Below are positions 35,940-64,000 of a DNA stretch of 64,000 nt, in pieces. Position numbers and translations under genes: made by a program. Under the pieces are notes generated by a model. It did no database searches. It worked only from the letters and a program-made list of their open reading frames with translations, and had not been told where the DNA came from. Source of the stretch: Candidatus Manganitrophaceae bacterium (GTDB lineage Bacteria > Nitrospirota > Nitrospiria > SBBL01 > Manganitrophaceae). The stretch lies in contig JACQEZ010000009.1 in the NCBI GenBank assembly GCA_016200325.1, forward strand, positions 1 through 64,000. The letters are read 5' to 3'. How positions within the stretch are numbered: position 1 is the first letter of the stretch; each line of letters begins with the position of its first letter.

Positions 35940-36491
35940 ATGGATGAAGCGATGAAAGACGAAGTCCTATCCAAGCTCTTGAGTAATCGGGAGAGGCTCC
36001 TCAGTTACGTTCGTAAGAAACTCTCCAATCCGGAGTTGGCGGAGGATGTGCTCCAGGATAGCTTGCTTAAAGCACTTCGGGCGGCGCCGGACCTAAGAGA
36101 GGATGAGAAGCTCTTTCCCTGGTTCTACAGGATCCTGAACAATGCCATTGTCGATGCCTACCGTCGCAAGCACATTGAGGCACAACATCTGGAACCGTAT
36201 ACTGAAGACCATGATTTGGCTATCACGCCTGAGGAGGAGGCCAACCTTTGTACCTGCTTTCGGGATTTGATCCCAACCCTCAAACCCGAATATGCCGAGT
36301 TGATTGAGGCATTGGATCTGGCTCACGGAAATCCTATACAGATGGCAAAAAAGCTCGGCATTACATCCAATAACCTGAAGGTGCGGAGGCACCGAGCGCG
36401 TCAGGCCCTCCTCCAACGATTAGAAGAAACCTGCCGGTCGTGCGCCAAACACGGCTGTCTCGATTGTACTTGTCGGAAGGATCAAATCTAG
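35940..36491 (+). CDS. ECF sigma factor with metal-sensing cysteine pattern (CorE-like, ECF44)
   Basis: The 183-residue sigma factor has region 2 (VRKKLSNPELAEDVLQDSLL, WFYRILNNAIVDAYRR) and region 4 (GNPIQMAKKLGITSNNLKVRRHRARQ, split here). A CxC pair, C104 and C106, lies in the linker between the two, and a C-terminal cysteine-rich tail carries C165, C168, C173, C176 and C178. Myxococcus CorE proteins have the same plan and sense copper or cadmium directly without an anti-sigma factor. None is present here either. The copper genes start 238 bp downstream. Confidence 0.88.
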   Translation: MDEAMKDEVLSKLLSNRERLLSYVRKKLSNPELAEDVLQDSLLKALRAAPDLREDEKLFPWFYRILNNAIVDAYRRKHIEAQHLEPYTEDHDLAITPEEEANLCTCFRDLIPTLKPEYAELIEALDLAHGNPIQMAKKLGITSNNLKVRRHRARQALLQRLEETCRSCAKHGCLDCTCRKDQI

Positions 36492-36728: not shown

Positions 36729-37004
36729 ATGGCACAGCTTACCTTTAACATTCCTAAAATCTCTTGCAGCCACTGCGTGGAGACAATCACTCAAGCGCTC
36801 CATCCATTAGTTGGCGTGAATCAGGTTTCCGTCGATATTCCATCCAAGCAGTTGGAAGTTAATTATGATAAGACGCGCATTACGATCGACCGGATGAGAG
36901 AGGCCCTTGCCGGGATAAATTACCCTGTTGCATCGGTGCAAACAGAATCAGGCGAGAAACGTCCAGACCGACGCGGTGCGGAGTGTTCTTGCTGCGGCGC
37001 ATAA
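36729..37004 (+). CDS. copZ: CopZ-like copper chaperone (HMA domain)
   Basis: A 91-residue cytosolic HMA protein. The metal site is C13-S-H-C16 in PKISCSHCVETI and the fold signatures VNQVSVDIPSKQLEVNYD and REALAGINYPVA follow. It should bind Cu(I) and hand it to the CopA ATPase encoded downstream. An additional C-terminal CSCCGA motif is unusual for CopZ and may add a second metal site. CGGAGG precedes the ATG. Expression is probably driven by the ECF-type promoter upstream. Confidence 0.92.
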   Translation: MAQLTFNIPKISCSHCVETITQALHPLVGVNQVSVDIPSKQLEVNYDKTRITIDRMREALAGINYPVASVQTESGEKRPDRRGAECSCCGA

Positions 37005-37193: not shown

Positions 37194-37838
37194 ATGAAAA
37201 AGTCGATCACCTCAATTTTCTGTCTGGCCCTCTTCATTTTTCTCGCGGTCCCACTGACTTCCTTCGCCGAAATGCAAGGGGGCGGAGAAGGAAAAGGAGG
37301 GATGATGGGAGAGGGAATGGGCGGCGGAATGCCGATGATGCAGAAAATGATGGGGATGCATGGCATGGATGCCGGGATGATGGAAATGATGAAGATGATG
37401 CAGGCCATGTCCCGCCTCGATCTCACCCCCGATCAAAAAAAGAAAATCGAATCGCTCAAGCTCAAACACCAGAAAGAAGCGATCCCGCTCCTCTCGAAAA
37501 CCGAGATGGCCAATGTCGAAATCAAGGAGCTGACCCTTTCCGATCCGATTGATTTAGAGAAGGTTAAAGCGAAGGTGAAGGAAAAATACACCGCGATGGC
37601 CGATCTGGAGGTCAGTCATCTTGCTCTGACGCAGCAGATGAAAGGAATTCTCACCCCCGAGCAGCGGCAGAAGATGGAATCGATGATGATGGAAATGGGA
37701 CCGATGATGGGCATGGGGATGATGGGAGGCCCCGCCGGAAAAGGCAAGACGGAGGGAGAAACCAAAGCGGCTCCAAAAACGACCCCGAAGGGATCGGAAG
37801 AAGCCGCCCCTGAAGGCGCCGATCCTCATGGCCATTGA
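37194..37838 (+). CDS. Met-rich CpxP/Spy/ZraP-like periplasmic protein
   Basis: A 214-residue exported protein. The signal peptide ends near TSFAEM. A Met/Gly-rich stretch (MMQKMMGMHGMDAGMMEMM) follows, then an LTP-type helical repeat pair (LDLTPDQKKKIESL and ILTPEQRQKMESM), the CpxP/Spy signature. A second Met-rich block and a Pro/Lys-rich tail ending in DPHGH close the protein. It should act as a periplasmic chaperone and Cu(I)/Ag(I) sponge through methionines and histidines. GGGAGG precedes the ATG. Confidence 0.85.
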   Translation: MKKSITSIFCLALFIFLAVPLTSFAEMQGGGEGKGGMMGEGMGGGMPMMQKMMGMHGMDAGMMEMMKMMQAMSRLDLTPDQKKKIESLKLKHQKEAIPLLSKTEMANVEIKELTLSDPIDLEKVKAKVKEKYTAMADLEVSHLALTQQMKGILTPEQRQKMESMMMEMGPMMGMGMMGGPAGKGKTEGETKAAPKTTPKGSEEAAPEGADPHGH

Positions 37839-37876: not shown

Positions 37877-38194
37877 ATGAAGACAAATCCTTGGAGAGCC
37901 GGGTTTACCCTGGCGCTGACCGTGACAATTACATATACAGTCTGCGCGGTCTTGTACGCGTTGTTTCCTGAACAAGGCATCGCGTTCTTGAATGCCCTGT
38001 TTCACGGAATTGATTTTAACAAGCTCGGGCCACCTTTGCCTTTCACCTTTCTGATGTTCGTTTATCCCCTGTTTGTTTTCGCAGTCTGGGGCTTTTTGGT
38101 TGGAGCGCTCTATACCCAGCTTAACAATCTGTTTCATGACGGTGATGAGCGGACCCATTCAGCGCATAAACGAAGAGTCGAGGCGACACGATGA
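37877..38194 (+). CDS. DUF5676 membrane protein
   Basis: A 105-residue protein with two hydrophobic segments ([20 protein letters not shown] and [20 protein letters not shown]) and a charged His-containing tail. It resembles the DUF5676 family found beside copper ATPases. It overlaps the copA start by four bases, so it is translationally coupled to it. Function is unknown. Confidence 0.78.
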
Positions 38195-40500
38195 CAACCG
38201 ATCCGGTCTGCGGAATGAAAGTGGATGAGAAGAGCGCGGTAGGAAAGGCCGTCTACAAAGGGACGACCTATTATTTCTGCTCGTCTTCCTGTCTGCAGAA
38301 GTTCGAAGCGACTCCCACCGACTACATCAAGGGAGGGGGCGCGGGAGAGGCGCCGCAGTCCGGTCCCCGCGCTCCCAAGTCGTCCGGGATGGTGAAAGAC
38401 CCGATCTGCGGGATGGTGGTGGATAAAGCAACGGCGCTTCATTCGGAGCGGAGCGGTCGGACCTATTATTTCTGCAGCGTTGGCTGTCAGCGGACGTTTG
38501 AATCTCCGGAGGCGGAATTGAAGTCGATGAAAACCCGGGTGACGATTGCGCTCACCGGCGTATTGGCGCTCGCGGTTCTTCGCGCCGCCGCTTTCATTGC
38601 GCTGGCCGCCGGCGCCACCATCGTTACCTGGGCGCCGATTCCGCAGCTCCCCTGGTTTACCTGGGGGATGTGGCTCTTCATTCTGGTGACGCCGGTTCAG
38701 TTTATCGGCGGCTGGTCGTTCTACGTCGGCTCTTGGAATGCGATTAAGAGTCGAACCATCAATATGGACTTCCTGATCGCGCTTGGGACCAGCGTCGCCT
38801 ATCTCTACAGCGTCGCGGTGATTTTCTTTCCCTGGGTCCTCCCGGTTCCGGTCGAAGAGCGGGCGGTCTACTTTGAGGTTTCCGCCGTCATCATCGCCTT
38901 TGTTCTGCTTGGGAAGTACATGGAGGAGATGATCAAGAAGCGCTCCTCCGCGGCGGTCCGAAAATTGATGGATTTAAAACCGGCGACCGCCCATGTCCTT
39001 CGAGAAAGGGTCGAGATGGAGGTCCCCGCCGAGACGGTGATGGTCGATGAGATCGTGATTGTCCGGCCCGGCGAGAAGATTCCGACGGATGGAGTCGTCC
39101 TGGAGGGGCGCTCGGCCGTCGACGAATCGATGCTGACCGGAGAGTCGATGCCGGTGGAGAAAACGCCGGGATCTTCGGTCATCGGTGGAACCTTGAACCG
39201 GACGGGGCTTTTCCGATTCACGGCGACACGGGTCGGATCGGAGACGGCGCTTGCGCAAATCATCAAAATGGTCGAAGAGGCGCAGGCGACCAGCGCGCCG
39301 ATCCAGCGGCTCGCTGATCAGGTCACCGGCTACTTTGTCCCGGCCGTGGTCGGCGTGGCGACCCTCTCATTTGCCCTCTGGTGGATTTCGGGAAACTTTC
39401 CGCAGGGTCTGCTTGCCTTCATCGCGGTGCTGATCATCGCCTGCCCTTGCGCCCTGGGGATTGCGACGCCGGCGGCGCTGATGGTCGGCGTGGGGAAGGG
39501 AGCCGAGGGAGGGATCTTGATCCGCGGCGGAGAGGTCTTGGAGCGCGCGGAGAAGCTGACCGCCGTCATCTTTGACAAGACCGGCACCCTCACGCGCGGG
39601 GAGCCGAATGTGACCGACATCCTCTCCTTCGGCGCTCATACCGAAACGGAAACCTTGCGGATGGCGGCGGCTGTCGAGGTCGGCTCCGAGCACCCGCTGG
39701 GAGAAGCGATTGTCCGCGCGGCGAAGCATCGGAGCTTGGAACTCTCCAAGGTGACGCAGTTTGAGGCGATCCCCGGTTATGGGATCCGAGGCGTCATCGA
39801 GGGCCGGGTCATTCTGCTCGGCGCCCGCCGTCTCTTCAAACGGGAGGGAATCGATTCCTCTCGGGCGGAAGAGGCGATGACCCGCTTGGAATCGGAGGGG
39901 AAGACCGCCATGCTGGTGGGGTGTGATGGAGCCCTTGCAGGGATCGTCGCCGTTGCCGACACACTGAAGCCGGAAGCGAAGGAGGCAGTCGCCGCCCTGC
40001 TTCGGGAGAAGGTCGAGGTGATTCTGCTCACCGGCGATAACCAGCAGACGGCCCGGGCCATTGCAAGGGAGGTTGGGATTCAGGAGGTGATCGCTGAGGT
40101 CCTCCCGGGGGATAAAGCGCGGGTCGTTCAGGACCTTCAGAAAAAAGGAAAGGTGGTGGCGATGGTCGGAGACGGCGTGAACGACGCCCCGGCGCTCGCC
40201 GCCGCCGACATCGGAATCGCCATCGGCTCCGGCTCCGACGTGGCGAAGGAGACCGGCGGGATCATCCTGGTCAAGAACGATGTCCGGGATGTCGTGGCGG
40301 GGATTCGGCTTTCCCGAGCGACCATGCGGAAGATCAAACAGAACCTTTTCTGGGCGTTCATCTATAACACCATCGGTGTTCCGGTGGCGGCGTTTGGCTA
40401 TCTTAACCCGATCATCGCCGGGGCGGCGATGGCGCTCAGCTCGCTTTCGGTCATTGTAAACTCGGCGATGTTGAAGCGGGCAAAGATTTCCGTCGATTGA
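38191..40500 (+). CDS. copA: Cu(I)-exporting P1B ATPase with two N-terminal YHS domains
   Basis: A 769-residue P-type ATPase. Two YHS domains (about residues 4-38 and 70-105, starting DPVCGM and DPICGM and each ending in YYFCS) replace the usual HMA domains. The transmembrane metal site is C418-P-C420 in [12 protein letters not shown], the phosphorylated residue is D462 in DKTGT, and SEHPLGEA and [10 protein letters not shown] follow. The CPC motif points to Cu(I)/Ag(I) export from the cytosol. It is coupled to DUF5676 upstream. Confidence 0.95.
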
Positions 40501-40534
40501 ACAGAACTTAAAATCTTGAAACAGGGGGAAAGAA

Positions 40535-40762
40535 ATGGAGACGCAACATCCTTCACAAGACCGTAAGAGCAGTCGGTTTAATCTGGCGCTGATCGCCTTT
40601 CTACTGATTGCCGCTTTCTTCCTGCTGTCGGAGCACCGAGCCCACTTCTTTGGGATTCTCCCCTATCTGTTGTTGCTCGCCTGCCCGTTTCTTCACTTGT
40701 TTATGCATGGAGGACATGACGGAGCCGCTTCAACCGATCACACGAAAGGAGATAAGCCATGA
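40535..40762 (+). CDS. DUF2933-type small membrane protein
   Basis: A 75-residue protein with two hydrophobic stretches (FNLALIAFLLIAAFFLL and ILPYLLLLACPFLHLFMH) and a His-rich C-terminal tail (MHGGHDG). The HLFMHGGHG-type ending is typical of DUF2933 proteins in copper-resistance islands. It overlaps the next start by four bases. The histidines could bind copper near the membrane; function is otherwise unknown. Confidence 0.8.
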   Translation: METQHPSQDRKSSRFNLALIAFLLIAAFFLLSEHRAHFFGILPYLLLLACPFLHLFMHGGHDGAASTDHTKGDKP

Positions 40763-41436
40763 ACGAATCATCCGCATACGGCCTCTGGCCGCTGGTAATT
40801 ATCAACTCGCTGATCTTCATCATTTTTGCCTTTAGCTTCACGCATCCCCGCACGAAGCGGGACTGGCGCTCCTTCGGCGCTTTCTCGGCGTTCATCGTCG
40901 CGCTCTTCACGGAGATGTACGGCTTTCCTTTGACGATTTATCTCCTTTCCGGTTGGCTGCAAAGCCGCTACCCCGGTGTGAACTGGCTCTCGCATGATTC
41001 CGGGCACCTACTCGAGATCCTTTTCGGCTGGCGCGCCAATCCGCATTTCGGGCCATTTCATCTGCTCAGCAATTTTCTGATCTTCGGTGGGTTTATTCTC
41101 CTCTCCGCCGCCTGGAAGGTCCTCTATGAAGCCCAAAGCAGCCACACCCTGGCGACCTCAGGCCCCTACGCGAAGATTCGTCATCCGCAGTACGCAGGGT
41201 TTGTCCTGATCCTGTTCGGATTCCTGCTGCAATGGCCGACGATTTTGACACTGGTCATGTTTCCGATTCTGGTCTTCATGTATGTCCGTCTCGCTCGGCG
41301 GGAAGAGCGGGAGGTCCTGGCGGAGTTCGGCGAGGCATATGCCCGTTATATGGCGAATACGCCGGCTTTTTTCCCGCGTCTCTCAGAGGGCGGCGCTAAA
41401 CAGGAAGCGGACAAGCCTCAAAGAGGAGCCCGGTGA
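40759..41436 (+). CDS. Isoprenylcysteine carboxyl methyltransferase-like membrane protein
   Basis: A 225-residue polytopic protein with about five membrane segments. The C-terminal signature LATSGPYAKIRHPQYAG, then ARREEREVLAEFGEAYARY, is typical of ICMT/PEMT-type SAM-dependent methyltransferases. Bacteria lack prenylated proteins, so the substrate is unknown. The next gene makes S-adenosylmethionine, its likely methyl donor, which makes the gene order notable. AGGAGATAAGCC precedes the ATG. Confidence 0.85.
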   Translation: MNESSAYGLWPLVIINSLIFIIFAFSFTHPRTKRDWRSFGAFSAFIVALFTEMYGFPLTIYLLSGWLQSRYPGVNWLSHDSGHLLEILFGWRANPHFGPFHLLSNFLIFGGFILLSAAWKVLYEAQSSHTLATSGPYAKIRHPQYAGFVLILFGFLLQWPTILTLVMFPILVFMYVRLARREEREVLAEFGEAYARYMANTPAFFPRLSEGGAKQEADKPQRGAR

Positions 41437-41439
41437 GCG

Positions 41440-42618
41440 ATGATTGATCGGAAGATCGTCGTCAATCCGATGGCTCGTCCACGGATCGAGGAGGAGGAAG
41501 TCGAGATGTGCGAGTGTAAGGGGATCGGGCATCCCGACACGATCGCCGACGGAGTCTGTGAGGCCGCATCCCGCGCGGTATCCTCGGCTTATATTCGGAC
41601 CTACGGCGCCGTTTTGCATCATAATCTGGACAAAGGGTTGCTCGTAGCGGGCCAAAGCGCCCCTCGGTTCGGCGGCGGACATTGGATAGATCCGATCAAG
41701 ATCTTCATCTGCGGCCGGGCCACCAATTCCGATCCGAAGTTGGATATCAAGAAAATCGTCTCGGATGCCGCGCGCGGATATTTGGAGGAAAATATCCGGT
41801 GCGACCTGAAATACTTCGAGATCATGACCGAAATCAAAGAAGGGAGCGCGAACTTAAAAGAGGTCTTCCGGCGCGGTGATGGCGCGCCACTGGCGAACGA
41901 TACCTCCTTCGGGTGCGGCTATGCCCCCTACTCCCGGTTGGAGCAGCGGGTCCTAAAACTGTCGCAGTTGATCCAATCGTCCGCGTTCAGGACATCGTTC
42001 CGCGCCGCAGGAGACGACTACAAGATCATGGGGCATCGCGTGAACGGCGATCTTTCCTTCACGATCGCGCTTGCCCTCATCGACCGATACGTCGAAGGGA
42101 TCGAACGCTACTTCATAATCAAGAAGGCAATCCACGACTACCTCGCCGATCACCTCGGCGCGCCGGCCGTGATCCGAATCAACACCCTCGATGATCCCGC
42201 GGCGCGGGATGAACGGGGCGTCTATCTGACCGTATCGGGATTGAGCGCCGAGATGGGGGATGACGGCCAGGTCGGTCGCGGTAACCGAGTGAACAGCTTG
42301 ATCACGCCGGGACGCGAGATGTCGCTGGAGGCGGCCGCGGGGAAGAACCCCGTCTCGCATGTCGGGAAGATCTACAATGTTCTCGCCCTCCTGATGGCGC
42401 GCGAGATCCACGAGGAGGTCGAGGAGGTGAGCGTCAAGCTATTGTCGGCGATTGGAGAGCCGACGGACCAGCCGCAGGTCGCGGCGATCGAAGTTCGCAC
42501 AAGTGAAGGCCTCAGCGTTGAATTGAAACGGTCGGTGACAGCGATCGCGGACGGGTGGCTGGAGAACATCGACCAGGTCACGCGGCTGATTTTGGACGAG
42601 AAAGTGTCTCTTTATTGA
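41440..42618 (+). CDS. mat: Archaeal-type S-adenosylmethionine synthetase
   Basis: A 392-residue cytosolic enzyme that makes S-adenosylmethionine from ATP and methionine. It belongs to the archaeal MAT family, not bacterial MetK: CKGIGHPDTIADG carries the GHPD motif, later GRATNSDP, and GDDGQVGRGNRVNSLITP matches the archaeal nucleotide-binding block. Full length. It starts three bases after the methyltransferase-like gene. Most bacteria use MetK, so the gene must be acquired or be a specialised second copy. Confidence 0.93.
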   Translation: MIDRKIVVNPMARPRIEEEEVEMCECKGIGHPDTIADGVCEAASRAVSSAYIRTYGAVLHHNLDKGLLVAGQSAPRFGGGHWIDPIKIFICGRATNSDPKLDIKKIVSDAARGYLEENIRCDLKYFEIMTEIKEGSANLKEVFRRGDGAPLANDTSFGCGYAPYSRLEQRVLKLSQLIQSSAFRTSFRAAGDDYKIMGHRVNGDLSFTIALALIDRYVEGIERYFIIKKAIHDYLADHLGAPAVIRINTLDDPAARDERGVYLTVSGLSAEMGDDGQVGRGNRVNSLITPGREMSLEAAAGKNPVSHVGKIYNVLALLMAREIHEEVEEVSVKLLSAIGEPTDQPQVAAIEVRTSEGLSVELKRSVTAIADGWLENIDQVTRLILDEKVSLY

Positions 42619-42672
42619 CATTTTATTTCCGTCCATTGGAAGATGAAAAAGAGGTGTTTCGGGAGAAGTTCG

Positions 42673-42822
42673 ATGATTGGAACCGTTCTGATGTGGATCG
42701 CAGTGGTTGCCTTCGGCCTCAGCGGTGCGGTCCGAATCGCGGAGGGGAAAAGGCTGCTCGGCCTGGCCCTTGTGCTGCTGGCCGCCGCCAATGCCATTCT
42801 GTTGAAGGCCGCCAATAGGTAG
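42673..42822 (+). CDS. Small hydrophobic membrane protein
   Basis: A 49-residue protein, below usual gene-calling size. Two hydrophobic helices (VLMWIAVVAFGLSGAV and LLGLALVLLAAANAILL) flank a short polar loop IAEGKR. A GGGAGAAG site lies six bases before the ATG. It lies between the SAM synthetase and the metallo-beta-lactamase genes in an otherwise gene-packed operon. Confidence 0.65.
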   Translation: MIGTVLMWIAVVAFGLSGAVRIAEGKRLLGLALVLLAAANAILLKAANR

Positions 42823-42864
42823 GCTGGTTTAGCCAAGGCTCTTAAAGGGAGAGGAAAGCCGAAC

Positions 42865-44223
42865 ATGGATATCACCTTTCTGGGGGCGACGGGGACGGTG
42901 ACCGGCTCGAAATATCTGGTTGCGGCCGGCTCTAAGAAACTTTTAATCGACTGCGGCCTGTTCCAGGGGTTCAAGCAACTGCGTCTGAGAAACTGGGAGC
43001 CGCTTCCGATCGCGCCGAGGCAGATCGACGCGGTGATCCTGACCCACGCCCATCTCGACCACAGCGGCTACATTCCTCTGTTGGTCAAGAAGGGTTTCTC
43101 GGGAAAGATCTATTCCACTCCGGCCACCCGCGATCTCTGCCGCATTCTCCTGCCGGACAGCGGCTTTCTCCAAGAGGAGGACGCGGCCTACGCGAACAAG
43201 AAAAAGTTCTCCAAACATGCCCCGGCGCTTCCGCTCTACACGCAGGAGGACGCGGAACGTTCGCTCCGCCATTTTTGGACCGTCGAGTTCGGACGGGATT
43301 TCGATCTCGGAGGGGGTCTTAGTTTTCAGTTCAAGCCTGCCGGGCATCTTCTCGGCGCCGCGATGATCTCCCTTCGGGAGGGCGACACTTCGCTTCTCTT
43401 CTCCGGCGACCTCGGCCGCCCGAATGATCTCCTCATGGCCGCCCCGTCGGAGATCGGCCGAACAGACTACCTGGTGATCGAATCGACCTACGGCAACCGG
43501 CGTCACGATCCCGCCGATCCGAAGAAAGCGCTTGCGGCAATCATCAACCGAACCGTGAGCCGCGGCGGAATCGTCGTGATCCCGTCTTTTGCAGTGGGCC
43601 GCGCCCAGGCGGTGCTCTACCTGATCCATCTTCTCAAAGCGGCGCATGAAATCCCCGACATTCCGGTCTTCCTCAACAGCCCGATGGCGGCCGAGGCGAC
43701 CGATCTCTACTGTGATCACCGGGAGGAACATCGGCTAACATCCGATCAGTGCCGGGCGATGTGCCGCGCCGCGCAGGTGGTCAATAGCGTGGAGGAATCG
43801 AAACGGGTCAATGGCTTAAAAGATCCAATGATTCTGATCTCGGCCAGCGGCATGGCCACCGGAGGACGGGTGCTCCACCACCTCAAAACCTTCGCTCCCG
43901 ACGAGCGGAATGCGATTCTCTTTGTCGGTTTTCAGGCGGGTGGGACACGCGGCGAGGCGATGGTGAACGGCGCCAAGGGGGTGAAGATTCATGGGGCCTA
44001 CATTCCGGTGAGGGCGGAAGTCGCGACCCTGGAGAATCTCTCCGGCCATGCAGACGCCGATGAAATCATGACCTGGCTGGGCCATTTCGCTGCGCCTCCG
44101 CGGGAAACATTTATCACTCATGGCGAGCCTGCCGCGGCGGATGACTTAAGACATCGGATTGAAGAGAAGCTCGGCTGGCGCTGCCAGATCCCGGACTATC
44201 TGCAAAAGACCGACCTGAAATAG
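42865..44223 (+). CDS. Metallo-beta-lactamase/beta-CASP exoribonuclease family protein
   Basis: The 452-residue protein has the full MBL motif set: FLGATGTVTGSKY, the zinc motif HAHLDHSG (residues 61-68), PAGHLLGAAM, FSGDLGR and the beta-CASP block DYLVIESTYGNR. The C-terminal GHADADEI and FITHGEP complete the domain. The family includes CPSF73-like and RNase J-related RNA nucleases. Its RNA-decay products could feed NMPs to the phosphorylase encoded 12 bp downstream, which is inference. Confidence 0.93.
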   Translation: MDITFLGATGTVTGSKYLVAAGSKKLLIDCGLFQGFKQLRLRNWEPLPIAPRQIDAVILTHAHLDHSGYIPLLVKKGFSGKIYSTPATRDLCRILLPDSGFLQEEDAAYANKKKFSKHAPALPLYTQEDAERSLRHFWTVEFGRDFDLGGGLSFQFKPAGHLLGAAMISLREGDTSLLFSGDLGRPNDLLMAAPSEIGRTDYLVIESTYGNRRHDPADPKKALAAIINRTVSRGGIVVIPSFAVGRAQAVLYLIHLLKAAHEIPDIPVFLNSPMAAEATDLYCDHREEHRLTSDQCRAMCRAAQVVNSVEESKRVNGLKDPMILISASGMATGGRVLHHLKTFAPDERNAILFVGFQAGGTRGEAMVNGAKGVKIHGAYIPVRAEVATLENLSGHADADEIMTWLGHFAAPPRETFITHGEPAAADDLRHRIEEKLGWRCQIPDYLQKTDLK

Positions 44224-44234
44224 CGGAGGGAAGG

Positions 44235-45758
44235 ATGTCTTCAAAGGAAGGAAAGTACGCTCATGCGCTTCGGCTTCGGAGAATCGGGATCGACACATAC
44301 CAGCAGCCGGTGATCTACATGAGGCGCGATTGCCACGTCTGCCGCTCGGAAGGATTTGAAGCGCTCTCCCGCGTCCAGGTGGCCCATAACGGGCATACTA
44401 TCATCGCAACCCTCAATATCGTAAACACCGATCTTTTGACTCCCGGAGAGGCCGCATTGTCCGAGTCGGCCTGGAAACTTTTGGGGGCGAAGGAAGGAGA
44501 CCGGATTGACCTTTCTCACCCGCCGCCGCTCGAATCGCTGAGCCATGTCCGCGCCAAGGCTTACGGAAAGCAGCTGGACGAAGTCGCCATGAAGGAGATC
44601 ATTCAAGACATCGTTGCGGGGAGATACTCCGATATTCATCTCGCCTCATTCATCACCGCCTCCGCGGGGGATCGCCTCGATACCTCGGAGATGGTCGCCC
44701 TGACCCGGGCGATGATCGGCGTCGGCGAGCGCCTCAGCTGGAGTCAGACTCCGGTGATGGACAAGCATTCCATCGGTGGCCTTCCCGGAAACCGGACGAC
44801 GCTGCTGATCGTTCCGATTGTCTCCGCATTCGGCCTGACGATACCGAAGACCTCCTCGCGAGCGATCACCTCTCCCGCTGGCACCGCCGACACGATGGAA
44901 ACGTTGGCGCCGGTGGCGCTTGACATTCCCTCCATGCGCCGCGTGGTGGAGCGGGAAGGGGGATGCATCATCTGGGGGGGAGCCGTTCGCCTGAGCCCCG
45001 CGGACGACGTTTTGATCCGGGTGGAACGGCCGCTGGACCTCGACAGCGACGGTCAAATCGTCGCCTCGATTCTCTCAAAGAAAGCGGCGGCGGGGTCGAC
45101 CCATGTGGTGATCGACATGCCGATCGGAGAGACGGCCAAAGTGCGAAGCGTTGAAGCGGCCGAAATTCTCCGCGACCGTCTGGAGGTGGTGGGCCGGGCG
45201 GTCGGCCTGAACATCCGAGCGGTTTTCACCGACGGCGCCCAGCCGGTCGGTTGCGGGATCGGTCCCGCGTTGGAGGCGCGCGACGTGCTCTCCGTCCTCC
45301 GCGGCGAGGCCACGGCGCCCCAGAGCCTTCGGGAGAGGGCGCTCACTCTCGCGGGGGCGATCTTGGAACTCTCCTCCCGAGTGCCCTCGGAAGAGGGATA
45401 TCATACAGCTCGCGCTATCCTCGACGATGGCCGGGCATGGCGCAAATTTCAGGCGATCTGCAGAGCGCAGGGTGGAATGCGGGAGCCTCAGCGCGCCGGA
45501 TATACCCGGACGGTTGAAGCCGAACGCGCGGGCGAGGTCGTTCAAATCGATAACCGCCGGCTCGCACGAGTCGCCAAGCTCTCCGGCGCGCCGCAGGCCC
45601 CCGCGGCTGGGTTATATTTGCATGCCCTCCTGGGCGCCCGGGTGGAAAAGGGCCAGCCGCTCTTCACGATTCACGCGGAGTCTCCGGGCGAGATGGCCTA
45701 TGCCTTGGCCTATGTGGAAGGACAAAAGGAGATCTTTCGCATCGAGGAGGCGCGATGA
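44235..45758 (+). CDS. AMP phosphorylase / thymidine phosphorylase family enzyme
   Basis: A 507-residue enzyme of the archaeal AMP phosphorylase group (annotated as putative thymidine phosphorylase in bacteria). DKHSIGGLPGNRTT and PKTSSRAITSPAGTADTME are the phosphate- and nucleoside-binding motifs; an extra N-terminal domain of about 85 residues distinguishes it from bacterial DeoA. Archaeal members phosphorolyse NMPs to ribose-1,5-bisphosphate and a base. No R15P isomerase or RuBisCO is present. It is coupled to PRPP synthetase (four-base overlap). Confidence 0.9.
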   Translation: MSSKEGKYAHALRLRRIGIDTYQQPVIYMRRDCHVCRSEGFEALSRVQVAHNGHTIIATLNIVNTDLLTPGEAALSESAWKLLGAKEGDRIDLSHPPPLESLSHVRAKAYGKQLDEVAMKEIIQDIVAGRYSDIHLASFITASAGDRLDTSEMVALTRAMIGVGERLSWSQTPVMDKHSIGGLPGNRTTLLIVPIVSAFGLTIPKTSSRAITSPAGTADTMETLAPVALDIPSMRRVVEREGGCIIWGGAVRLSPADDVLIRVERPLDLDSDGQIVASILSKKAAAGSTHVVIDMPIGETAKVRSVEAAEILRDRLEVVGRAVGLNIRAVFTDGAQPVGCGIGPALEARDVLSVLRGEATAPQSLRERALTLAGAILELSSRVPSEEGYHTARAILDDGRAWRKFQAICRAQGGMREPQRAGYTRTVEAERAGEVVQIDNRRLARVAKLSGAPQAPAAGLYLHALLGARVEKGQPLFTIHAESPGEMAYALAYVEGQKEIFRIEEAR

Positions 45759-46648
45759 AACCGCTGGTGTTTGCATTGCCGGGCAATGACGATCTGGCCA
45801 CATCCCTTGCGAATCGGATCGACGCCGAAGTCGGAAAGATTCTCTTCCGACGGTTTCCCGATAGCGAATCTTATTTCCGGATCGAGACCTCCGTTAAAGG
45901 GCGCCCGGCGATCCTCTGCTGTACGCTCGACCGGCCCGACACCAAGGCGATCCCGCTTTTTTTCGCGGCGCAAACCGCAAAGGATCTCGGGGCCACCCAG
46001 GTCGGGCTGGTCGTGCCCTATCTTGCCTATATGCGTCAGGATCGGCGGTTCCAACCCGGAGAGGGGATCACCTCCGTCTACTTTGCTCGGCTCCTATCCG
46101 GCTCCGTCGATTGGCTGGTCACAGTCGATCCCCATCTGCACCGGCGCGCCTCTCTGTCGGAGATCTACACTATCCCTACGCGGGTGATTCACGCCGCCCC
46201 TTTGATCTCAACCTGGATTCGCGCCAACATTGTTTCTCCGGTCCTGATCGGGCCTGACAGCGAGAGTAAGCAGTGGGTCTCCGAGATCGCAGCCCGGGCC
46301 GGAGCTCCCTATCTGGTTTTGGAGAAGATCCGCCGCGGCGACCGGGAGGTGGAGGTCTCGGTTCCCGAGATCGACCGCTGGAAAAGCTGCACGCCGGTGC
46401 TGGTGGACGACATCATCTCTACGGCCCGAACCATGATTGAGACAGTCGGACATCTGCGCCGCGCGGGACTTTCGAAGCCGGTCTGTATCGGGATTCATGC
46501 GATCTTTGCCGATCGGGCTGAGGAGGATCTTCAGGAAGCGGGGGCATTGAGGGTGGTGACCTGTAACACGATTCCGCACCCCTCCAATGCGATCGATCTC
46601 GGCGACCTGCTGGCGGGAGGGGTGCGCGAGATGAAGGATGCGGTATGA
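45755..46648 (+). CDS. prs: Ribose-phosphate pyrophosphokinase (PRPP synthetase)
   Basis: A 297-residue enzyme that makes PRPP from ribose-5-phosphate and ATP. DPHLHRR and the PRPP-binding loop VLVDDIISTARTM are conserved, and RRFPDSESY and YLAYMRQDRRF match the ATP-binding region. It is a little shorter than typical bacterial Prs (310-315), as in divergent or archaeal-like forms. The overlap with the AMP phosphorylase implies stoichiometric expression and a shared ribose-phosphate pathway. Confidence 0.93.
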   Translation: MKPLVFALPGNDDLATSLANRIDAEVGKILFRRFPDSESYFRIETSVKGRPAILCCTLDRPDTKAIPLFFAAQTAKDLGATQVGLVVPYLAYMRQDRRFQPGEGITSVYFARLLSGSVDWLVTVDPHLHRRASLSEIYTIPTRVIHAAPLISTWIRANIVSPVLIGPDSESKQWVSEIAARAGAPYLVLEKIRRGDREVEVSVPEIDRWKSCTPVLVDDIISTARTMIETVGHLRRAGLSKPVCIGIHAIFADRAEEDLQEAGALRVVTCNTIPHPSNAIDLGDLLAGGVREMKDAV

Positions 46649-46737
46649 AGCCTTATTGCTCGTCAAAGGATCGATATCGAAGAGCAGGGAAATGAGATCG
46701 TCGGCTGGAGGGATGATCATTTTTTCAGGAGGTCTCC

Positions 46738-46911
46738 ATGCGTAACTGGGCTTGGCTCTGTCCTTACATGATGATCGGGTTGGCGACGGGGGTCTTGGTC
46801 CTCTTTGGCCTGACCCTCTGGAGCGCTTTTCTGATCGCGCTTTTATTGGTCTGCCCGGCCGTGATGTTATGGGGAGCATGGCAGATAAGAAGCCCGCATA
46901 GAAAATTTTGA
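46738..46911 (+). CDS. Small membrane protein
   Basis: A 57-residue protein with two hydrophobic helices (MMIGLATGVLVLFGLTLWSAF and FLIALLLVCPAVMLWGAW, the pair almost contiguous) and a basic end. An AGGAGG site lies six bases before the ATG. It fills the gap between PRPP synthetase and the UbiB-like gene, which supports its being real. Confidence 0.7.
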   Translation: MRNWAWLCPYMMIGLATGVLVLFGLTLWSAFLIALLLVCPAVMLWGAWQIRSPHRKF

Positions 46912-46924
46912 GAAGGTAAAACGG

Positions 46925-48634
46925 ATGGCACTTCGACCTTACAAGATGAGACTTGCCGATCTGAACCGTCTGCGCAAGATTCTCGTCATCGTCGTCGAAT
47001 CGGGCGGAGGAATGCTCATTGATCGGCTCCGGCTCCGGTATCTACTTCCGCTTCGATATCGGATCGCGCATCTCTTCAGAGGCGCTTCCGTCGAGGAGAG
47101 CCCGGCTCAAATTGAAGGACCGCAGCCGATTCTCTCGCCCCCCGCCTTGAGAACCCTTCTGGAGCGGTTGGGACCGACTTTCATCAAACTGGGACAGATC
47201 TTGAGCATGCGCGCCGACCTGGTCGGGGAGACCCTCTCGCAGGAGTTCTCCAAGTTGCAGAGCCATGCCCCTCCTTTTTCGTATGAGGAGGCGAGAAAAA
47301 TTCTCCGGGAGGAGTTGGGCGGCGCTCCCGAGGAGCGGTTCAAGTCATTTGAAGAGAAACCGGTCGCCGCCGCCTCGCTGGCCCAGGTCCATCGGGCTTT
47401 CCTGGAAGATGGAACCGAGGTCGCCGTCAAAATCCAGCGGCCCGGGATTCAGAAGATCATTACCCAGGATATTCACATTCTCTTCTTCCTCGCTGGCTTG
47501 GCCGAGCGCTTCCTCCCGGAACTGCGGCTCTACCGGCCGACGCGGGTTATTAATGAGTTCGCCGACTGGACCTTGAGGGAGCTCGATTTCAGGGCGGAGG
47601 GGCGCAACGCGGAGCGGTTCCGCTATATCTTCCGAGACAATCCCGATATCACTATTCCGAAGGTCTTCTGGGACCGGACCACCGAGCGGGTCCTGACCGC
47701 TTCGTTCTCCCACGGGGTCAAGGTCACCGATCTCGACCGGATCGAGACGTTCGGCGGCGATCGAAAGCGGCTCGCCGCGATCGGCGTGAGCGCCTTTTTT
47801 CAACAATTTTTCGTTGCGGGATTCTTCCATGCCGATCCCCATCCAGGAAATTTCTTCGCCATGCCCGACGGGCGGCTCTGCCTTCACGATTTCGGGATGG
47901 TCGGATATCTGGACGAAGCGTCGCGCCGGGAGCTGTTGAGCTGTTTGATCTCCTTCGTCAATAAAGATATTGAAGGGTTCACGCGGCATCTGCTTCATCT
48001 CGCGACGATCGATCAGGAGAGCGACCTCGCCGGATTTCAGAGAGACATCGCCGGCATCTTGAGCGAGTTCTTCTTCACGGAGCATCCGCCGAGCATCACC
48101 TGGGCCTTCTTCCGGGTAATCAACCGGGGGGCGAGAAGCGGGATCCGGTTTCCCGCCGATCTCGCCCTCTTCGGCAAGGCGCTCGCCACCACGGAGGGGA
48201 TGGGCGTAAAACTCTACCCGGAGTTTGCTTTCAACAAGGAGCTCGAACCTTATGTGATGGGCGCCTTGAAAGATCAATTCAGCCCGACGAAGATCTTCCA
48301 AAAACTTCAGGCCGATCTCCTGGACCATGTCGGTTTCCTGGCCTCTCTTCCCGAAGAGATCAGACACGCGCTCGCTAAAATCGAGAAGGGAGAGATCGGC
48401 GTTAAAATCGACACCCAGGAAATTCAAGGGATGAAGCGGGAGTTTGATCGGCAGAACGATTTACGAATATTGGGGATGGTTCTGACGGCAGTGGTCCTCG
48501 CAACGTTCGGCCTGCTTCACCTGGAGGGGAAGGAGTCCCTTGGAGGGATTCCGTTCAGCGCCCTCGGCATGGTCGTGTCAGCGGTCCTGTTCATCTGGTT
48601 TGTGATGCGACTGAGAAAGGGGCCGGAGGCCTGA
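46925..48634 (+). CDS. UbiB/AarF-type (ABC1) atypical kinase
   Basis: The 569-residue protein has the KxGQ-like block PTFIKLGQILSMRADL, the Ala-rich loop PVAAASLAQVH, EVAVKIQRPG for ATP binding, HADPHPGNF and DFGMVG for catalysis, and two C-terminal membrane helices. UbiB/COQ8 proteins are atypical kinases or ATPases that support quinone synthesis and membrane lipid handling. In a copper operon it may help keep the quinone pool under metal stress. It is full length. Confidence 0.93.
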   Translation: MALRPYKMRLADLNRLRKILVIVVESGGGMLIDRLRLRYLLPLRYRIAHLFRGASVEESPAQIEGPQPILSPPALRTLLERLGPTFIKLGQILSMRADLVGETLSQEFSKLQSHAPPFSYEEARKILREELGGAPEERFKSFEEKPVAAASLAQVHRAFLEDGTEVAVKIQRPGIQKIITQDIHILFFLAGLAERFLPELRLYRPTRVINEFADWTLRELDFRAEGRNAERFRYIFRDNPDITIPKVFWDRTTERVLTASFSHGVKVTDLDRIETFGGDRKRLAAIGVSAFFQQFFVAGFFHADPHPGNFFAMPDGRLCLHDFGMVGYLDEASRRELLSCLISFVNKDIEGFTRHLLHLATIDQESDLAGFQRDIAGILSEFFFTEHPPSITWAFFRVINRGARSGIRFPADLALFGKALATTEGMGVKLYPEFAFNKELEPYVMGALKDQFSPTKIFQKLQADLLDHVGFLASLPEEIRHALAKIEKGEIGVKIDTQEIQGMKREFDRQNDLRILGMVLTAVVLATFGLLHLEGKESLGGIPFSALGMVVSAVLFIWFVMRLRKGPEA

Positions 48635-48758
48635 ATCGAGGACCGACCTCCTTCTGAGGGGTTGTGTTCGCTGTCTCTTTTGTCCAGAATGGAGAAAAGT
48701 GAGTCCTCTAGAAAATCGGAATTTAATGCATGTGAAGGCTTTAGATAAGGAGCGTACG

Positions 48759-49820
48759 ATGAGCAGAGTAAAGGTGGCTGTGAATGGTTATGGCGTGATC
48801 GGAAAGCGGGTGGCCGACGCGGTTCGGAAACAAGACGATTTAGAGTTGGTCGGCGTGGCCGACATCATGACCGACTACCGGATCAAAACCGCGGCGATCT
48901 TGGGGATTCCCGTCTTCGCGGCGGCGCCGGAGAAAGCGGCGGAGATGCGATCCTCCGGGATTCCGGTCGCGGGGACGGTGGACGAGCTTCTCTCCCGGGT
49001 CGACGTGGCGGTCGATTGCACCCCCAAGAAGATCGCCGCCGGAAACAAAGCGCGTTACGAAAAGGCAGGCGTCAAAGCGATCTTTCAGGGAGGCGAGGCG
49101 CACGCGCTGACCGGCCATTCGTTCGTGGCACAGGCGAACTACGAAACAGCGCTCGGACGGCAGATCACCCGCGTGGTCTCCTGCAACACCACCTCCATCG
49201 TCCGCACGCTCACGGCGCTGAAGAAGGCGGGGCTGCTGAAGCGCGCGCGGGGGACCCTGATCCGCCGGGCCTCCGATCCCTGGGAGTCGCACCTCGACGG
49301 CATCATGAACACGATCGTTCCGGAGAAGGTGATCCCGAGCCACCAAGGACCCGACGCGCGGACCGTCGACCCCGATCTGAATGTCGTCACCATTGCCGTC
49401 AAGGCCCCGGAAAACATCAGCCATCTCCATACCTGGTGGGTCGAGCTGACCCGATCTTCCACAAAGGAGGAGGTCCTCGCCGCGTTTCGCGCGGCGCCTC
49501 GGATTGCGTTTGTCCGGATGGGGGATGGCGTGACGGCGATCAACAGCACCAAGGAGCTGATGTCCGATCTGGGGCGCCCCCGGGCCGACCTCTATGAGGT
49601 GGGCCTCTGGGAAGACGTCCTTACTGTCGAGGGGAATGAAGTTTACTATACCTACCAGGTCGACAATCAGGCGATCGTCATTCCCGAGACGATTGATGCG
49701 ATCCGAGCGCTGGCCGGGATCGAGAAAGATGCGATGAAGTCGATCGAGAAAACCGACAGGGCGCTGGGAGTGGTAAAAGAATTTCTTCAAATTGAAAAGA
49801 AAAAGGCGGAGGCGGCCTAG
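48759..49820 (+). CDS. gap: Archaeal-type (type II) glyceraldehyde-3-phosphate dehydrogenase
   Basis: A 353-residue GAPDH of the archaeal type II family. [15 protein letters not shown] is its Rossmann motif, and the catalytic C142 lies in [20 protein letters not shown] and the C-terminal [10 protein letters not shown]-like block are typical. It can use NAD or NADP. Bacteria normally have type I GapA; a copper-sensitive cysteine enzyme is here duplicated by an unrelated-sequence form inside a copper operon. AAGGAG before ATG 48759 decides the start. Confidence 0.93.
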
Positions 49821-49839
49821 CGCTTTCGAAAGGGCATCG

Positions 49840-52236
49840 ATGAAGACGAGCACTATCGAGGTCGGGGAGATCCTCTCGCCGCTGAGCGCCCGCGGCGTGG
49901 AAAAGCAGTTGATGCGTCTGCCGGGGATGAAGCGGGTGGAGGTCAATCCAGTCTCGGATACCGCCACGGTGACGTATGACGAGGCGGTGATGGATCTCAA
50001 AACGATCAAGAAACGGGTGGAGGAGTGCGGCCATCACTGCCGCGGCGAGATGGTTCCCAAACACATCTGCGCGCCGGAAGATCCGGAGATGGAGGCGGCG
50101 ATGCCGGCTCCGATGGAGGAACACCGGGAGCATGCCGCCCATGCGCCGGCTCCAAAAGCCGCTCCCGCGATGGCGGAGATGGCGCACGAGATGGGGCATG
50201 GCCCCGGGATGGATCTGGCGGAGATGGCGCGCGACATGCGCAACCGCTTTTGGATTGCTTTACTCTTTTCGGTTCCGATTTTTCTCTATGCGCCGATGGG
50301 AATCGATTTCATCCGGCTGACGCCCCCGTTTGGTTTGAATCTCAACGTCTGGCTCTTTCTGCTGGCGAGCGCCGCGATCCTCTACCCCGGCTGGCCTTTT
50401 GTGGTCGCCGCCGTCCGGGCGATTCGAAACGGCGCGTTGAACATGGCGGTCCTGGTGGTGTTGAGCGTCGGAACCGGCTACCTCTTCAGCATCGGCGCGA
50501 CCTTCTTCTTTCAAGGGGAGCAGTTCTACGAGGCGGCCTCCGTTCTGCTGGTCTTTATCCTGCTCGGTCACTGGCTGGAGATGCGGGCCCGCGCCGGGGC
50601 GTCCAGCGCGATCCGGGCGCTGATGGACCTTGCCCCCCCGATGGCCACCGTCTTCAGGAACGACCGCGAAGTAGAGATCCCAACAGCGGAGGTGGAGGTC
50701 GGTGATTTGATCGTGATCCGTCCCGGGAACAAGATCCCGGTGGACGGTCAAGTCGTCGACGGATCGTCGCTCGTCGATGAATCGATGCTCACCGGCGAAT
50801 CGATGCCGGTGAGTAAGGCGCCGGGCAACACGGTGATCGGGGCCACGATCAATAAGAGTGGAACCTTCCGCTATCGCGCCACCAAGGTCGGAGCCGACAC
50901 CGCGCTCGCCCAGATCGTGAAGCTGGTCCAGGAGGCGCAGAACTCGAAGGCCCCGGCGCAGCTTCTCGCCGATCGCGCCGCCCAGTGGCTCGTCGCTTCC
51001 GCGATTGGAATCGGTCTGATCACATTTGCGTTTTGGTACGGATGGGCGGACCGCCCCCTCCTCTTTGCAATGACCCTCACGATCACGGTCTTCGTCATTG
51101 CCTGCCCCGACGCGTTGGGATTGGCCACCCCGATGGCAGTCATGGTCGGAACCGGACTCGGCGCGATGAACGGGATTCTCTTCAAGAACGCCGCGGCGTT
51201 AGAGGAGGCGACCAAACTGAATGTCGTTGTCTTCGATAAGACCGGAACTTTGACGATGGGCCAGCCGGAGGTGGTGGAGGTGGCGACCGTCGCCGGAAGA
51301 GGCGCAGACGAAATTCTCTCCTTGGCGGCCGCGGTCGAAGAGGGATCGGAACACCCGCTGGCCCAGGCGATTCTCCGCCGGGCGGAAGGGCTCCAGCGGG
51401 AGCGGGCAAAAGGTTTTACCGCCATCGAGGGAAAAGGAGCGCGGGCCGAGGTCTCCGGCCGGTCGGTGCTTCTCGGGAATCGCCGACTGATGGAGGAAGA
51501 AGGGGTCGACATGAGCGGCCTCGATGCGGAATCGAATCGGTTCCAAGGATCCGGAAGAACGGTGACCCATGTCGCTCAGGATCGAAAGGGAATCGGTCTG
51601 ATCGCGATCGCGGACGCCTCCCGTCCCACCGCCGCCGAGGCGGTGAAGAAATTGAGAGATCGGGGAGTTCATGTCGCCATGCTGACCGGCGATAACCGCG
51701 CGACCGCCGAGCGGATCGCCGCGGAGCTGGGGATCGAGATCGTCCTGGCCGACGTACTGCCGGGGCAGAAGGCGGAGAAGATTAAAGAACTTCAGTCGCA
51801 GGGGAAGAAGGTGGGAATGGTGGGGGACGGGGTCAACGATGCGCCGGCGCTCACGCAAGCCGATGTCGGATTCGCGATCGGCGCCGGGACCGATGTCGCG
51901 ATGGAGAGCGCCGATGTGGTGTTGATGAAGAGCGATCCGTATGATGTGGTCGGCGCGATTGAGCTCTCCCGCGCAACGCTACGCAAGATGCGGCAGAACC
52001 TCTTTTGGGCGGTTGCTTACAACGTGATTGCCTTTCCGCTGGCGGCGGGAGTATTCTATCCGATCACGATCAGCCCGGAGGCGGCGGCGCTCTCGATGTC
52101 CGGAAGCACGGTCCTGGTGGCGATGAACGCCATGTTGCTGAGGTGGACGCGCCTGGCGGGGATTCGAAAATCGTCCGCCGTATCGACTGAAGGAAAGAGC
52201 CACGAGAAAACGCATCAGATGCGCCGAGCGGCATGA
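49840..52236 (+). CDS. P1B ATPase with CPD motif and degenerate HMA domain
   Basis: A 798-residue heavy-metal ATPase. The N-terminal HMA-like domain lacks CxxC (SPLSARG replaces it) but ends in CGHHCRGE and KHIC, followed by a long Met/His-rich spacer. The transmembrane motif is C422-P-D424 in [12 protein letters not shown], not the CPC of CopA; D466 in DKTGT is phosphorylated. CPx variants change metal choice, so the substrate is uncertain; Cu, Ag or another metal are possible. It starts 19 bases after the GAPDH gene. Confidence 0.93.
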
Positions 52237-53326: not shown

Positions 53327-54577
53327 ATGAAACGACTTCTCTTGCTCTTTATCTTTTTCTTTAACGCCATTGAACCGTCAATCGCCGCTCCCGCTGCCAT
53401 AGAAAGTGCCCCGATGCTGGTTTTGGAGGACATCCTCCGGGAAGTGGCCGATAAGAACCCGGAGATCCTGGCAGCGGAAAAGCGGGAGCGCGCAGCCGAA
53501 GAGCGCATTCCACAAGCGCGCGCTTTTGACGATCCCCAGATCGGCGTGATGCAATGGTCGATTCCTTCCAATTTCAATCTCGGGAAGGCCGATGAGACTT
53601 GGTACACCCTCTCTCAAAGTTTTCCCTTCTTCGGAAAACGGGCGCTTCGCGGCAGCGTGGCCGGCCTAGAGCGGACGATGGCGGGCGAAGAGGCGCGCGG
53701 CGTCCGCCTTAAAATACTACGAGAATCAAAGCAGGCGTATTACGATCTCTTCTTCGCTCACAAGGCGCTTGAAATTCATCATACTCAGGTTGAGCTGGCC
53801 CGAAAGTTCTCCCAAATCGCCCAGGAGAAGTTTGCCGTCGGAGCGGTCGGCCAGCAAGACATCCTGCGTGCTCAGGTTGAATTGCTCGATCTCTCCAACG
53901 CGCTGGTCACGTTAGAACAGGAGCGGGAGACGGCGGAGGCGCGGCTCAACACCCTCCTGAATCGACCTTCCGACGCGCCGCTCGGTCTCCCTCAACCCCC
54001 GACGATCCCGGCGGTTGAGCCTTCAGTGGAGATGCTGCAGCGCGAAGCGGAGGAAGCCCGCCCTGAGAATCGGATGCACGCGCTGGCGATTCGCCGCGGA
54101 GAAGAATCGATCAAATTGGCCCGCCGCGATCTTTTTCCCGATGTGATGGCGGAGGTGGCCTATTGGGACGTTCATGACGGTCCGAACCGCTGGATGGCCT
54201 CGGTCAAAATCAATCTCCCCTGGATCAACAAGAAAAAATACGACGCCCGCATCCGGGAGAACGAAGCCGAGCAGTCCCGCGCCGAAGCCGCCCATCAAGC
54301 GGCGATCAATGAGACCGCCCTTCGAGTCAAAGAAGTTCTTGTCCGGTTCCAATCATCGCGGCGTCTGGCCCGGCTTTACGAGAGCGGCATCCTGCCGCTG
54401 GCGGAGCAGTCGCTGGAGGCGGCCACGATCGGATATCAGACGAAGAAGAACGATTTCCTCACTCTCATTGACGCGCAAAAGAACCTGAAGGAGTTGGAGC
54501 TGACCTACTTTCGCTCCTTGGTCGATGTGAATAAAAACGCAGCCGAGCTGGAAGAGCTGGTTGGAAGAGGATTTTAA
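53327..54577 (+). CDS. cusC: CusC-like outer-membrane factor (TolC family)
   Basis: The 416-residue protein has a signal peptide and the twofold repeated helical TolC/OEP pattern: LEDILREVADKNPEILAAEKR and ALEIHHTQVELARKFSQIA, then IRENEAEQSRAEAAHQAAI. It forms the outer-membrane channel for the RND pump. TGGAGTGGTCC precedes the ATG. It is the first of three cus genes, 26 bp before cusB. Confidence 0.92.
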   Translation: MKRLLLLFIFFFNAIEPSIAAPAAIESAPMLVLEDILREVADKNPEILAAEKRERAAEERIPQARAFDDPQIGVMQWSIPSNFNLGKADETWYTLSQSFPFFGKRALRGSVAGLERTMAGEEARGVRLKILRESKQAYYDLFFAHKALEIHHTQVELARKFSQIAQEKFAVGAVGQQDILRAQVELLDLSNALVTLEQERETAEARLNTLLNRPSDAPLGLPQPPTIPAVEPSVEMLQREAEEARPENRMHALAIRRGEESIKLARRDLFPDVMAEVAYWDVHDGPNRWMASVKINLPWINKKKYDARIRENEAEQSRAEAAHQAAINETALRVKEVLVRFQSSRRLARLYESGILPLAEQSLEAATIGYQTKKNDFLTLIDAQKNLKELELTYFRSLVDVNKNAAELEELVGRGF

Positions 54578-54603
54578 CTTTACAAAATAAGGAGGATACA
54601 AAA

Positions 54604-56247: not shown

Positions 56248-56302
56248 TGCTAATCGGGGCGGGGTAGACCCGCCCCGATTACGAAACTGATTGGAGTTTC
56301 AC

Positions 56303-63772: not shown

Positions 63773-64000
63773 CCCAACAGCCTCCTTACCGACATGTATC
63801 ATTTTCCTCTTCCTGCCAAATGCAGGCGTGCTCACGCTTAAAAGGAAAATAAATAGATAGGAAATAGGACATTAATCCTCTTTTTCGATGGCTCGAAAAA
63901 TTGCTCGAAAGAACTTTTATCCACGGTTGCTTAAAAAGAGCGCCGCTGGATATGCTACGAGCATCACTTTCCTAAACTTCGGAAGAGAAGGTTTAAATTC

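Follow-up and report, generated by a model that had tools for sequence, protein, structure and literature searches.

Accounts of metal resistance deal mainly with export, chelation, and oxidation. The closest described systems to the locus reported here are the copper-resistance islands (cop/pco, cus, and CopA with CopZ). The locus spans approximately 35.9-63.8 kb of the window, the 64,000-nucleotide stretch analyzed (contig JACQEZ010000009.1, positions 1 to 64,000, of the Candidatus Manganitrophaceae bacterium assembly GCA_016200325.1). It shares P1B ATPases, CusABC-type efflux, CopA/CopB, and CopZ with these islands and is a variant of them, but here a six-gene run with enzymes of central metabolism is interleaved between the pumps: S-adenosylmethionine synthetase (SAMS), a beta-CASP metallo-beta-lactamase (MBL), thymidine/AMP phosphorylase (TP), a phosphoribosyl pyrophosphate (PRPP) synthetase paralogue (PrsL), a UbiB-like kinase, and type II glyceraldehyde-3-phosphate dehydrogenase (GAPDH). 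The locus is mobile, and its host is a relative of manganese-oxidising bacteria.

Two of these steps are known to be sensitive to copper in Staphylococcus aureus. According to the parts of the two reports available, GapA binds copper and is inhibited by it (Tarrant 2018, PMC6350627), and Cu(I) inhibits Prs, more prs giving more tolerance (Norambuena 2023, PMC10249872). The first-pass annotation of this DNA, made from the sequence alone, was thus right to call GAPDH a documented copper target. The island encodes the same two enzyme families or steps, whereas the effects described in those parts concern the normal enzymes, with no acquired replacement genes described there. The available part of a review names a CXC motif in the linker and a Cys-rich C-terminal domain as marks of CorE-type extracytoplasmic function (ECF) sigma factors, with copper as the signal for CorE, and Cd and Zn as the signals for CorE2 (PMC8999054). 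The island ECF factor resembles them, by sequence alone, in having both marks (C104 and C106 between the region 2 and region 4 matches; five Cys among the last 20 residues).

The island phosphorylase is of the same superfamily as the archaeal AMP phosphorylase of the pentose bisphosphate pathway. It differs in scoring under the AMP-phosphorylase equivalog TIGR03327 (490.5 against a curated cut-off of 535) and in having a PRPP-synthetase paralogue as its partner, and a known ribose-1,5-bisphosphate (R15P) isomerase was over cut-off in 0 of 30 phosphorylase-bearing genomes (below cut-off in 15). No description of metal pumps combined with these metabolic enzymes was found in the open-access literature searched (subscription papers and preprints lay outside its scope), nor of the association in the available parts of PMC9948745, PMC5467263, PMC6315756, and PMC10233261.

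Association of type II GAPDH with P1B ATPases

The island GAPDH scored well over the type II cut-offs (NF003251, 457.1 against 185; TIGR01546, 345.2 against 232.9). C140 (SCNTT), H220, and H222 (HxH), which we take to be catalytic residues, were invariant across six aligned sequences. Five plasmid sequences served as seeds for the query alignment. Of at least 568 relatives, the best 80 were analyzed together with as much as 10 kb of flanking sequence on each side; as controls, one type I GAPDH place was taken from each of 40 genomes out of a set of 50, which account for 50 of the 80 loci. A complete P1B motif was present in 31 of the 80 type II GAPDH loci and in none of the 40 type I GAPDH loci (Fisher p 3.5e-7, kinship uncorrected). 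After dereplication, with the window included, 29 of 53 clusters at 90% identity and 14 of 15 at 75% were positive. In an unbiased neighbour count, too, no family other than the anchor and its antisense open reading frames (ORFs) was as common as P1B (31/53 vs 0/40 controls). The motif scan omits ATPases incomplete at locus edges; a tblastn panel that includes them, with the window taken as a 36-kb stretch and the other loci as at most 21 kb, detected a P1B match in 37/80 loci, 32/53 dereplicated loci, and 0/40 controls. The P1B-positive loci span at least eight phyla. Type II GAPDH is associated with P1B ATPases.

In the same panel, genes for UbiB-like proteins, ICMT, cyclopropane synthase, phosphoketolase, and multicopper oxidase each occurred near approximately 9 of the 53 GAPDH loci, glycogen-phosphorylase-type genes near approximately 7, and MBL, TP, and PRPP-synthetase genes near approximately 6 each; all of these gave 0/40 in the controls. 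MBL, TP, PRPP synthetase, UbiB, and type II GAPDH were found jointly in 11/80 loci; many of these are near-copies from Beta- and Gammaproteobacteria.

The GAPDH tree mixes phyla, for example with a Nitrospira bin beside a planctomycete bin, and identical type II GAPDH proteins occur in Stenotrophomonas and Hydrogenophaga. Near-identical proteins in a Nitrospira bin (L014) and a Planctomycetaceae bin (L016) reflect either recent transfer or a binning error. Type I GAPDH was also present in 49 of the 50 genomes with type II GAPDH loci, and the exception may be an incomplete bin.

Extra copies in the host and gain or loss as a block

The host genome (99.4% complete) encodes one MetK, two type I GAPDHs, and one canonical Prs elsewhere; therefore, the island SAMS, PRPP synthetase, and GAPDH are extra copies, as the first-pass annotation had supposed. 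The alternative, that the host has no enzymes of its own and uses these as housekeeping copies, was rejected on this ground and retains next to no probability. Among 295 Nitrospirota genomes, type II GAPDH (E <= 1e-60) was found in two, the host included; the phosphorylase (E <= 1e-30) in 29, of which five are close (host included) and 24 distant (27-32% identity); and archaeal-type SAMS (E <= 1e-20) in 75, with a single close relative at 66%. Among named relatives, the closest is a Candidatus Manganitrophaceae metagenome bin, whose GAPDH is 96% identical.

A sister contig (L013) aligned to window positions 37248-41381 and 46715-52471 at approximately 90%, and carried approximately 70 bp in place of positions 41381-46715 (SAMS-MBL-TP-PRPP). 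This alignment indicates that ICMT, UbiB, GAPDH, and both ATPases form a shared core, and that SAMS-MBL-TP-PRPP were gained or lost jointly. Apart from the window, none of the 80 type II GAPDH loci contained SAMS in the tblastn panel; among these loci and five plasmid loci, a single partial match was obtained, on a Ciceribacter plasmid. A fixed six-gene unit is ruled out by the sister contig, which lacks the four genes, and by the other GAPDH loci, which lack SAMS. From these comparisons we infer that the parts of the island are a mosaic put together by horizontal transfer.

The phosphorylase and its PRPP-synthetase paralogue

The phosphorylase was assigned to the PRK04350 subfamily (696.9 against a cut-off of 434), its closest solved chains being 4ga5 and 4ga4. 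PrsL was over the ribose-phosphate diphosphokinase cut-offs (PRK07199, 416.9 against 322; TIGR01251, 183.5 against 113). A PRPP-synthetase paralogue was found in the same stretch at 58 of 60 phosphorylase loci, near-copies included. In Pseudomonadota, the phosphorylase matched 38 of 398 genomes at 41 places, of which 39 were taken (G305 and the contig-end match in G580 were left out); the paralogue was present at 38 of these 39 loci and an MBL homologue at 17.

In the tree, 59 linked paralogues, the window included, split from 29 canonical Prs proteins at an SH-aLRT of 100. The two groups differ in the sugar pocket, with GPDxE in 59/59 linked paralogues vs SPDxGG in 29/29 canonical Prs. The linked paralogues retain RQD as well as the Lys and Arg of the flexible loop, have LHR after the conserved active-site His, and have Ser for the loop Asp in 57/59; the residue preceding the last Thr of the loop is Arg in 37/59 of them vs Gly in 28/29 canonical Prs. 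Thus PrsL lacks the canonical ribose-phosphate pocket (SPDxGG; loop ending GT), and two archaeal solved relatives retain STGGT in the loop. The roles of these pocket and loop residues are presumed here. Because the ribose-phosphate pocket is altered, PrsL may not be a plain back-up Prs; of the back-up PRPP supply put forward in the first-pass annotation, the enzyme family was confirmed and the sugar pocket was not that of Prs.

Canonical Prs was present in all 30 phosphorylase-bearing genomes searched, and PhnN was over cut-off in seven of them and below it in the remainder. The sub-cut-off matches to R15P isomerase and PhnN are presumably MtnA and guanylate kinases. The scarcity of both enzymes over cut-off suggests that the paralogue itself consumes the phosphorylase product.

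A P1B motif lay near 6/39 Pseudomonadota phosphorylase loci vs 0/40 type I GAPDH controls. All six belonged to the 18 top-scoring loci (51-60% identical); the 21 others (46-51%) had none. This division was drawn post hoc with the result already seen, and three of the 21 showed weak (28-35%) P-type ATPase similarity. A PrsL-type paralogue stands beside nearly every PRK04350-type phosphorylase examined, whether metal pumps are near or not (L164-L202, L100-L104), and the phosphorylase-PrsL pair is not generally tied to metals. Hence the co-occurrence with P1B ATPases envisaged in the first-pass annotation was observed for type II GAPDH and, less strongly, for the phosphorylase, and did not extend to the six genes as one conserved unit.

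Two observations from the available parts of other reports concern enzymes whose phosphorylase family may be different. In P. aeruginosa ATCC 27853, a thymidine phosphorylase gene that is missing in PAO1 has a locus tag between the copper-response and mercury regions (PMC5467263), and DeoA was up 2.5-fold under uranium in a Burkholderia (PMC6315756).

SAM synthetase, MBL protein, and UbiB-like kinase

SAMS was over the cut-offs of PF01941 (452 against 27) and NF003366 (475.7 against 435). Its closest relative (66%) sits between CopA-UbiB-ICMT and a CPD ATPase. A P1B motif was found near none of 14 ordinary SAMS relatives (39-45%), four of whose stretches were shorter than 15 kb, and one locus (L108) showed weak P-type ATPase similarity. 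Six further SAMS loci came from plasmids or metal-type settings; of these, L099, L121, and L233 had a P1B motif and L234 did not; L235 contained an annotated heavy-metal ATPase and L236 an untyped P-type ATPase, each cut at the stretch end. One plasmid each of Cupriavidus and Burkholderia has SAMS near P1B ATPases, and one of Phenylobacterium has it near cueR and CopA/CopB; on a Methylocystis plasmid it lies near no P1B ATPase.

The MBL protein scored below the Cas14 profile NF045584 (381.2 against a cut-off of 800), and its identification as Cas14 of type VII CRISPR was not adopted. The UbiB-like kinase was over cut-off for the ABC1 domain PF03109 and below the UbiB equivalog TIGR01982 (379.8 against 487.55).

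Gene map of the copper locus

The features of the locus are listed in Table 1. The six ORFs lie where the first-pass annotation had placed them, in the same strand and order, and profile searches confirmed their identities at least to subfamily or domain. The YHS-CopA upstream and the CPD ATPase downstream were likewise recovered, with CPC at 39441 and CPD at 51102 in a motif scan; both exceed the cut-off of 397 of the copper P1B profile TIGR01511 (600.7 and 613.7) and carry a CPx motif. The run had been described as without promoter gaps. It does contain three, of 258, 246, and 276 bp, but each holds one small ORF, so the description is nearly right. ATG 48759 was chosen as the GAPDH start over GTG 48699 because the family profile starts there.

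Table 1 Features of the copper locus in the window.
Feature	Position	Strand	Basis or remark
ECF sigma factor, CorE-like signature	35940..36491	+	CXC and Cys-rich C-terminus
CopZ-like HMA metallochaperone	36729..37004	+	domain searches
LTXXQ/Spy-like protein, Met-rich	37194..37838	+	domain searches
DUF5676 membrane protein, small	37877..38194	+	domain search
Copper P1B ATPase, two YHS domains, CPC motif	38191..40500	+	profile search and motif scan
DUF2933 membrane protein, small	40535..40762	+	ORF and domain search
Membrane methyltransferase, ICMT/PEMT-type	40759..41436	+	domain search
SAMS, archaeal-type	41440..42618	+	profile searches
Membrane-like small ORF	42643..42822	+	no family over cut-off
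Beta-CASP MBL	42865..44223	+	PF10996, PF07521; closest solved relative, RNase TTHA0252
TP, PRK04350 subfamily	44235..45758	+	profile searches
PrsL, PRPP-synthetase paralogue of phosphorylase-linked group	45755..46648	+	profile searches and tree
Membrane-like small ORF	46738..46911	+	no family; present in sister too; just within right edge of shared core
ABC1 kinase, UbiB-like	46925..48634	+	PF03109
Type II (archaeal-type) GAPDH	48759..49820	+	profile searches
P1B ATPase, HMA domain, CPD motif	49840..52236	+	profile search and motif scan
Metal efflux, TolC-CusB-CusA type	53327..59575	+	profile searches
Copper-resistance CopB and CopA-type multicopper oxidase	61140..63835	-	domain searches

The left part of the window (1-31000) matched the F-type conjugation genes TraG, TraH, TraF, TrbC, TraN, TraC, and TrbI. 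An integrase (100-1308), a coupling-protein match (25909-27720), and a Replic_Relax-type match (29474-30316) were also found there. The conjugation genes, integrase, and coupling protein indicate that the copper island is probably cargo of an F-type conjugative element. Directly behind the CPD ATPase, an 80-aa ORF (52251-52493) matched the start of a multicopper oxidase (PF07732) and is probably a truncated copy.

Related islands on plasmids

The Acidovorax plasmid p1-T1 carries MBL-TP-PRPP-UbiB-GAPDH in the order of the window; upstream of this run are a CPD ATPase and PPK2, and downstream of it phosphoketolase and acetate kinase. A Criblamydia plasmid carries a P-type ATPase, phosphoketolase, GlgP, MBL-TP-PRPP, and acetate kinase. 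A Roseovarius plasmid (L123, 15081-28176) carries MBL-TP-PRPP, a P1B ATPase, type II GAPDH, FabI, a Rieske-type subunit, and the arginine deiminase pathway; an ECF sigma factor near type II GAPDH on a Roseovarius plasmid is 40.6% identical to that of the island. These three islands point to a stress metabolism broader than copper targets alone. On a Legionella anisa plasmid (L119, 78-20000), TP-PRPP precedes genes for most of the subunits of an alternate F1F0 ATPase, for CusA-type efflux, and for phosphate acetyltransferase and acetate kinase.

Discussion

We lean slightly toward reading the locus as a copper-resistance island, carried by an F-type conjugative element, that would combine export with a metabolic bypass of copper-poisoned steps. 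The CorE-like sigma factor probably senses copper, whereupon the pumps, chaperone, and oxidase would be switched on together with the extra enzymes. Copper escaping export would inhibit the host type I GAPDH and Prs, as is known from S. aureus, and type II GAPDH may take over the triose step. Its presumed copper tolerance is suggested by the active-site motif, which is SCNTTS in the island GAPDH vs CTTNC in both host type I GAPDHs, and the island enzyme has two Cys in total vs three and four in the host forms. The beta-CASP protein, the phosphorylase, and PrsL would convert RNA or nucleoside monophosphates (NMPs) to ribose phosphates or PRPP, past the blocked Prs, and SAMS may supply the adjacent ICMT and other island methyltransferases.

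In a more specific form, the bypass would be one of the poisoned targets themselves, spread by mobile elements: beside the pumps, the island would supply a GAPDH whose active-site motif contains one Cys, together with a route from RNA to PRPP. NMPs freed by the beta-CASP protein would be turned into R15P by the phosphorylase, and PrsL, with its rebuilt sugar pocket, would take this on to PRPP, avoiding the copper-sensitive Prs. We think this version rather unlikely to hold.

Several results weigh against the bypass. The first-pass annotation had regarded the run as metal-tolerant replacement enzymes; in Cys content this applies to GAPDH and does not apply to SAMS (six vs five in the host MetK) or PRPP synthetase (five vs four in Prs), so that Cys-poor enzymes as a rule were rejected for the three pairs compared. 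The term is also unfit for the MBL protein, because its family is Zn-dependent, and the island GAPDH still relies on a catalytic Cys. The sister contig retains the copper core without four of the six genes. Nor is the ECF sigma factor a regular companion, with similar proteins in 1/80 GAPDH loci (a part match) and on two plasmids. The association itself is incomplete: 49 of the 80 type II GAPDH loci, and 14 of the 33 full-length dereplicated ones, are without a complete P1B motif, and in three P1B-less loci, of which one or two neighbours each were read, GAPDH lies beside phosphoglycerate kinase and phosphoenolpyruvate (PEP) synthase, PEP carboxykinase, or citrate synthase. Moreover, with five plasmid seeds and the best 80 relatives, the sample leans toward the island clade, and since the controls are core genes, part of the P1B enrichment may reflect accessory location.

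The breadth of the related islands also fits another account, in which the islands, once copper has stopped respiration and Fe-S enzymes, would sustain substrate-level formation of ATP from polymer stores (RNA ribose, glycogen, polyphosphate, and arginine), with GAPDH and the phosphorylase feeding in; copper tolerance of any single enzyme would then be beside the point. Phosphoketolase, acetate kinase, PPK2, GlgP, or the arginine deiminase pathway occur in such islands, as does an alternate F1F0 ATPase, there accompanied by CusA-type efflux and acetate kinase, and phosphoketolase (9/53) and glycogen-phosphorylase-type genes (7/53) recur at dereplicated GAPDH loci and not in the 40 controls. 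Window positions 28001-64000, however, gave no phosphoketolase, acetate kinase, or PPK2 match, and neither SAMS nor UbiB makes ATP. We regard an emergency energy supply as a minority possibility. It is also conceivable, and to our mind improbable, that mobile elements gathered accessory metabolic genes beside metal genes at polluted sites where both are selected, the two being functionally uncoupled. The mosaic composition, the gain or loss as a block, and the phosphorylase-PrsL pairs away from metal pumps (33/39 Pseudomonadota loci without a P1B motif) would be expected from such hitch-hiking; the recurrence of the same neighbours across several phyla, the tight packing of the genes inside the copper run, and the representation of both S. 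aureus copper targets, GapA and Prs, in the island argue against it.

If mobile islands do carry stand-ins for copper-inhibited enzymes, as the bypass reading holds, they would parallel, for metals, the antibiotic resistance gained by target replacement, and their contents would provide a natural list of the cytosolic enzymes really poisoned by copper. The substrate of the PRPP-synthetase paralogue, which stands beside the phosphorylase in Nitrospirota, Pseudomonadota, and a Criblamydia plasmid, would likewise become testable.

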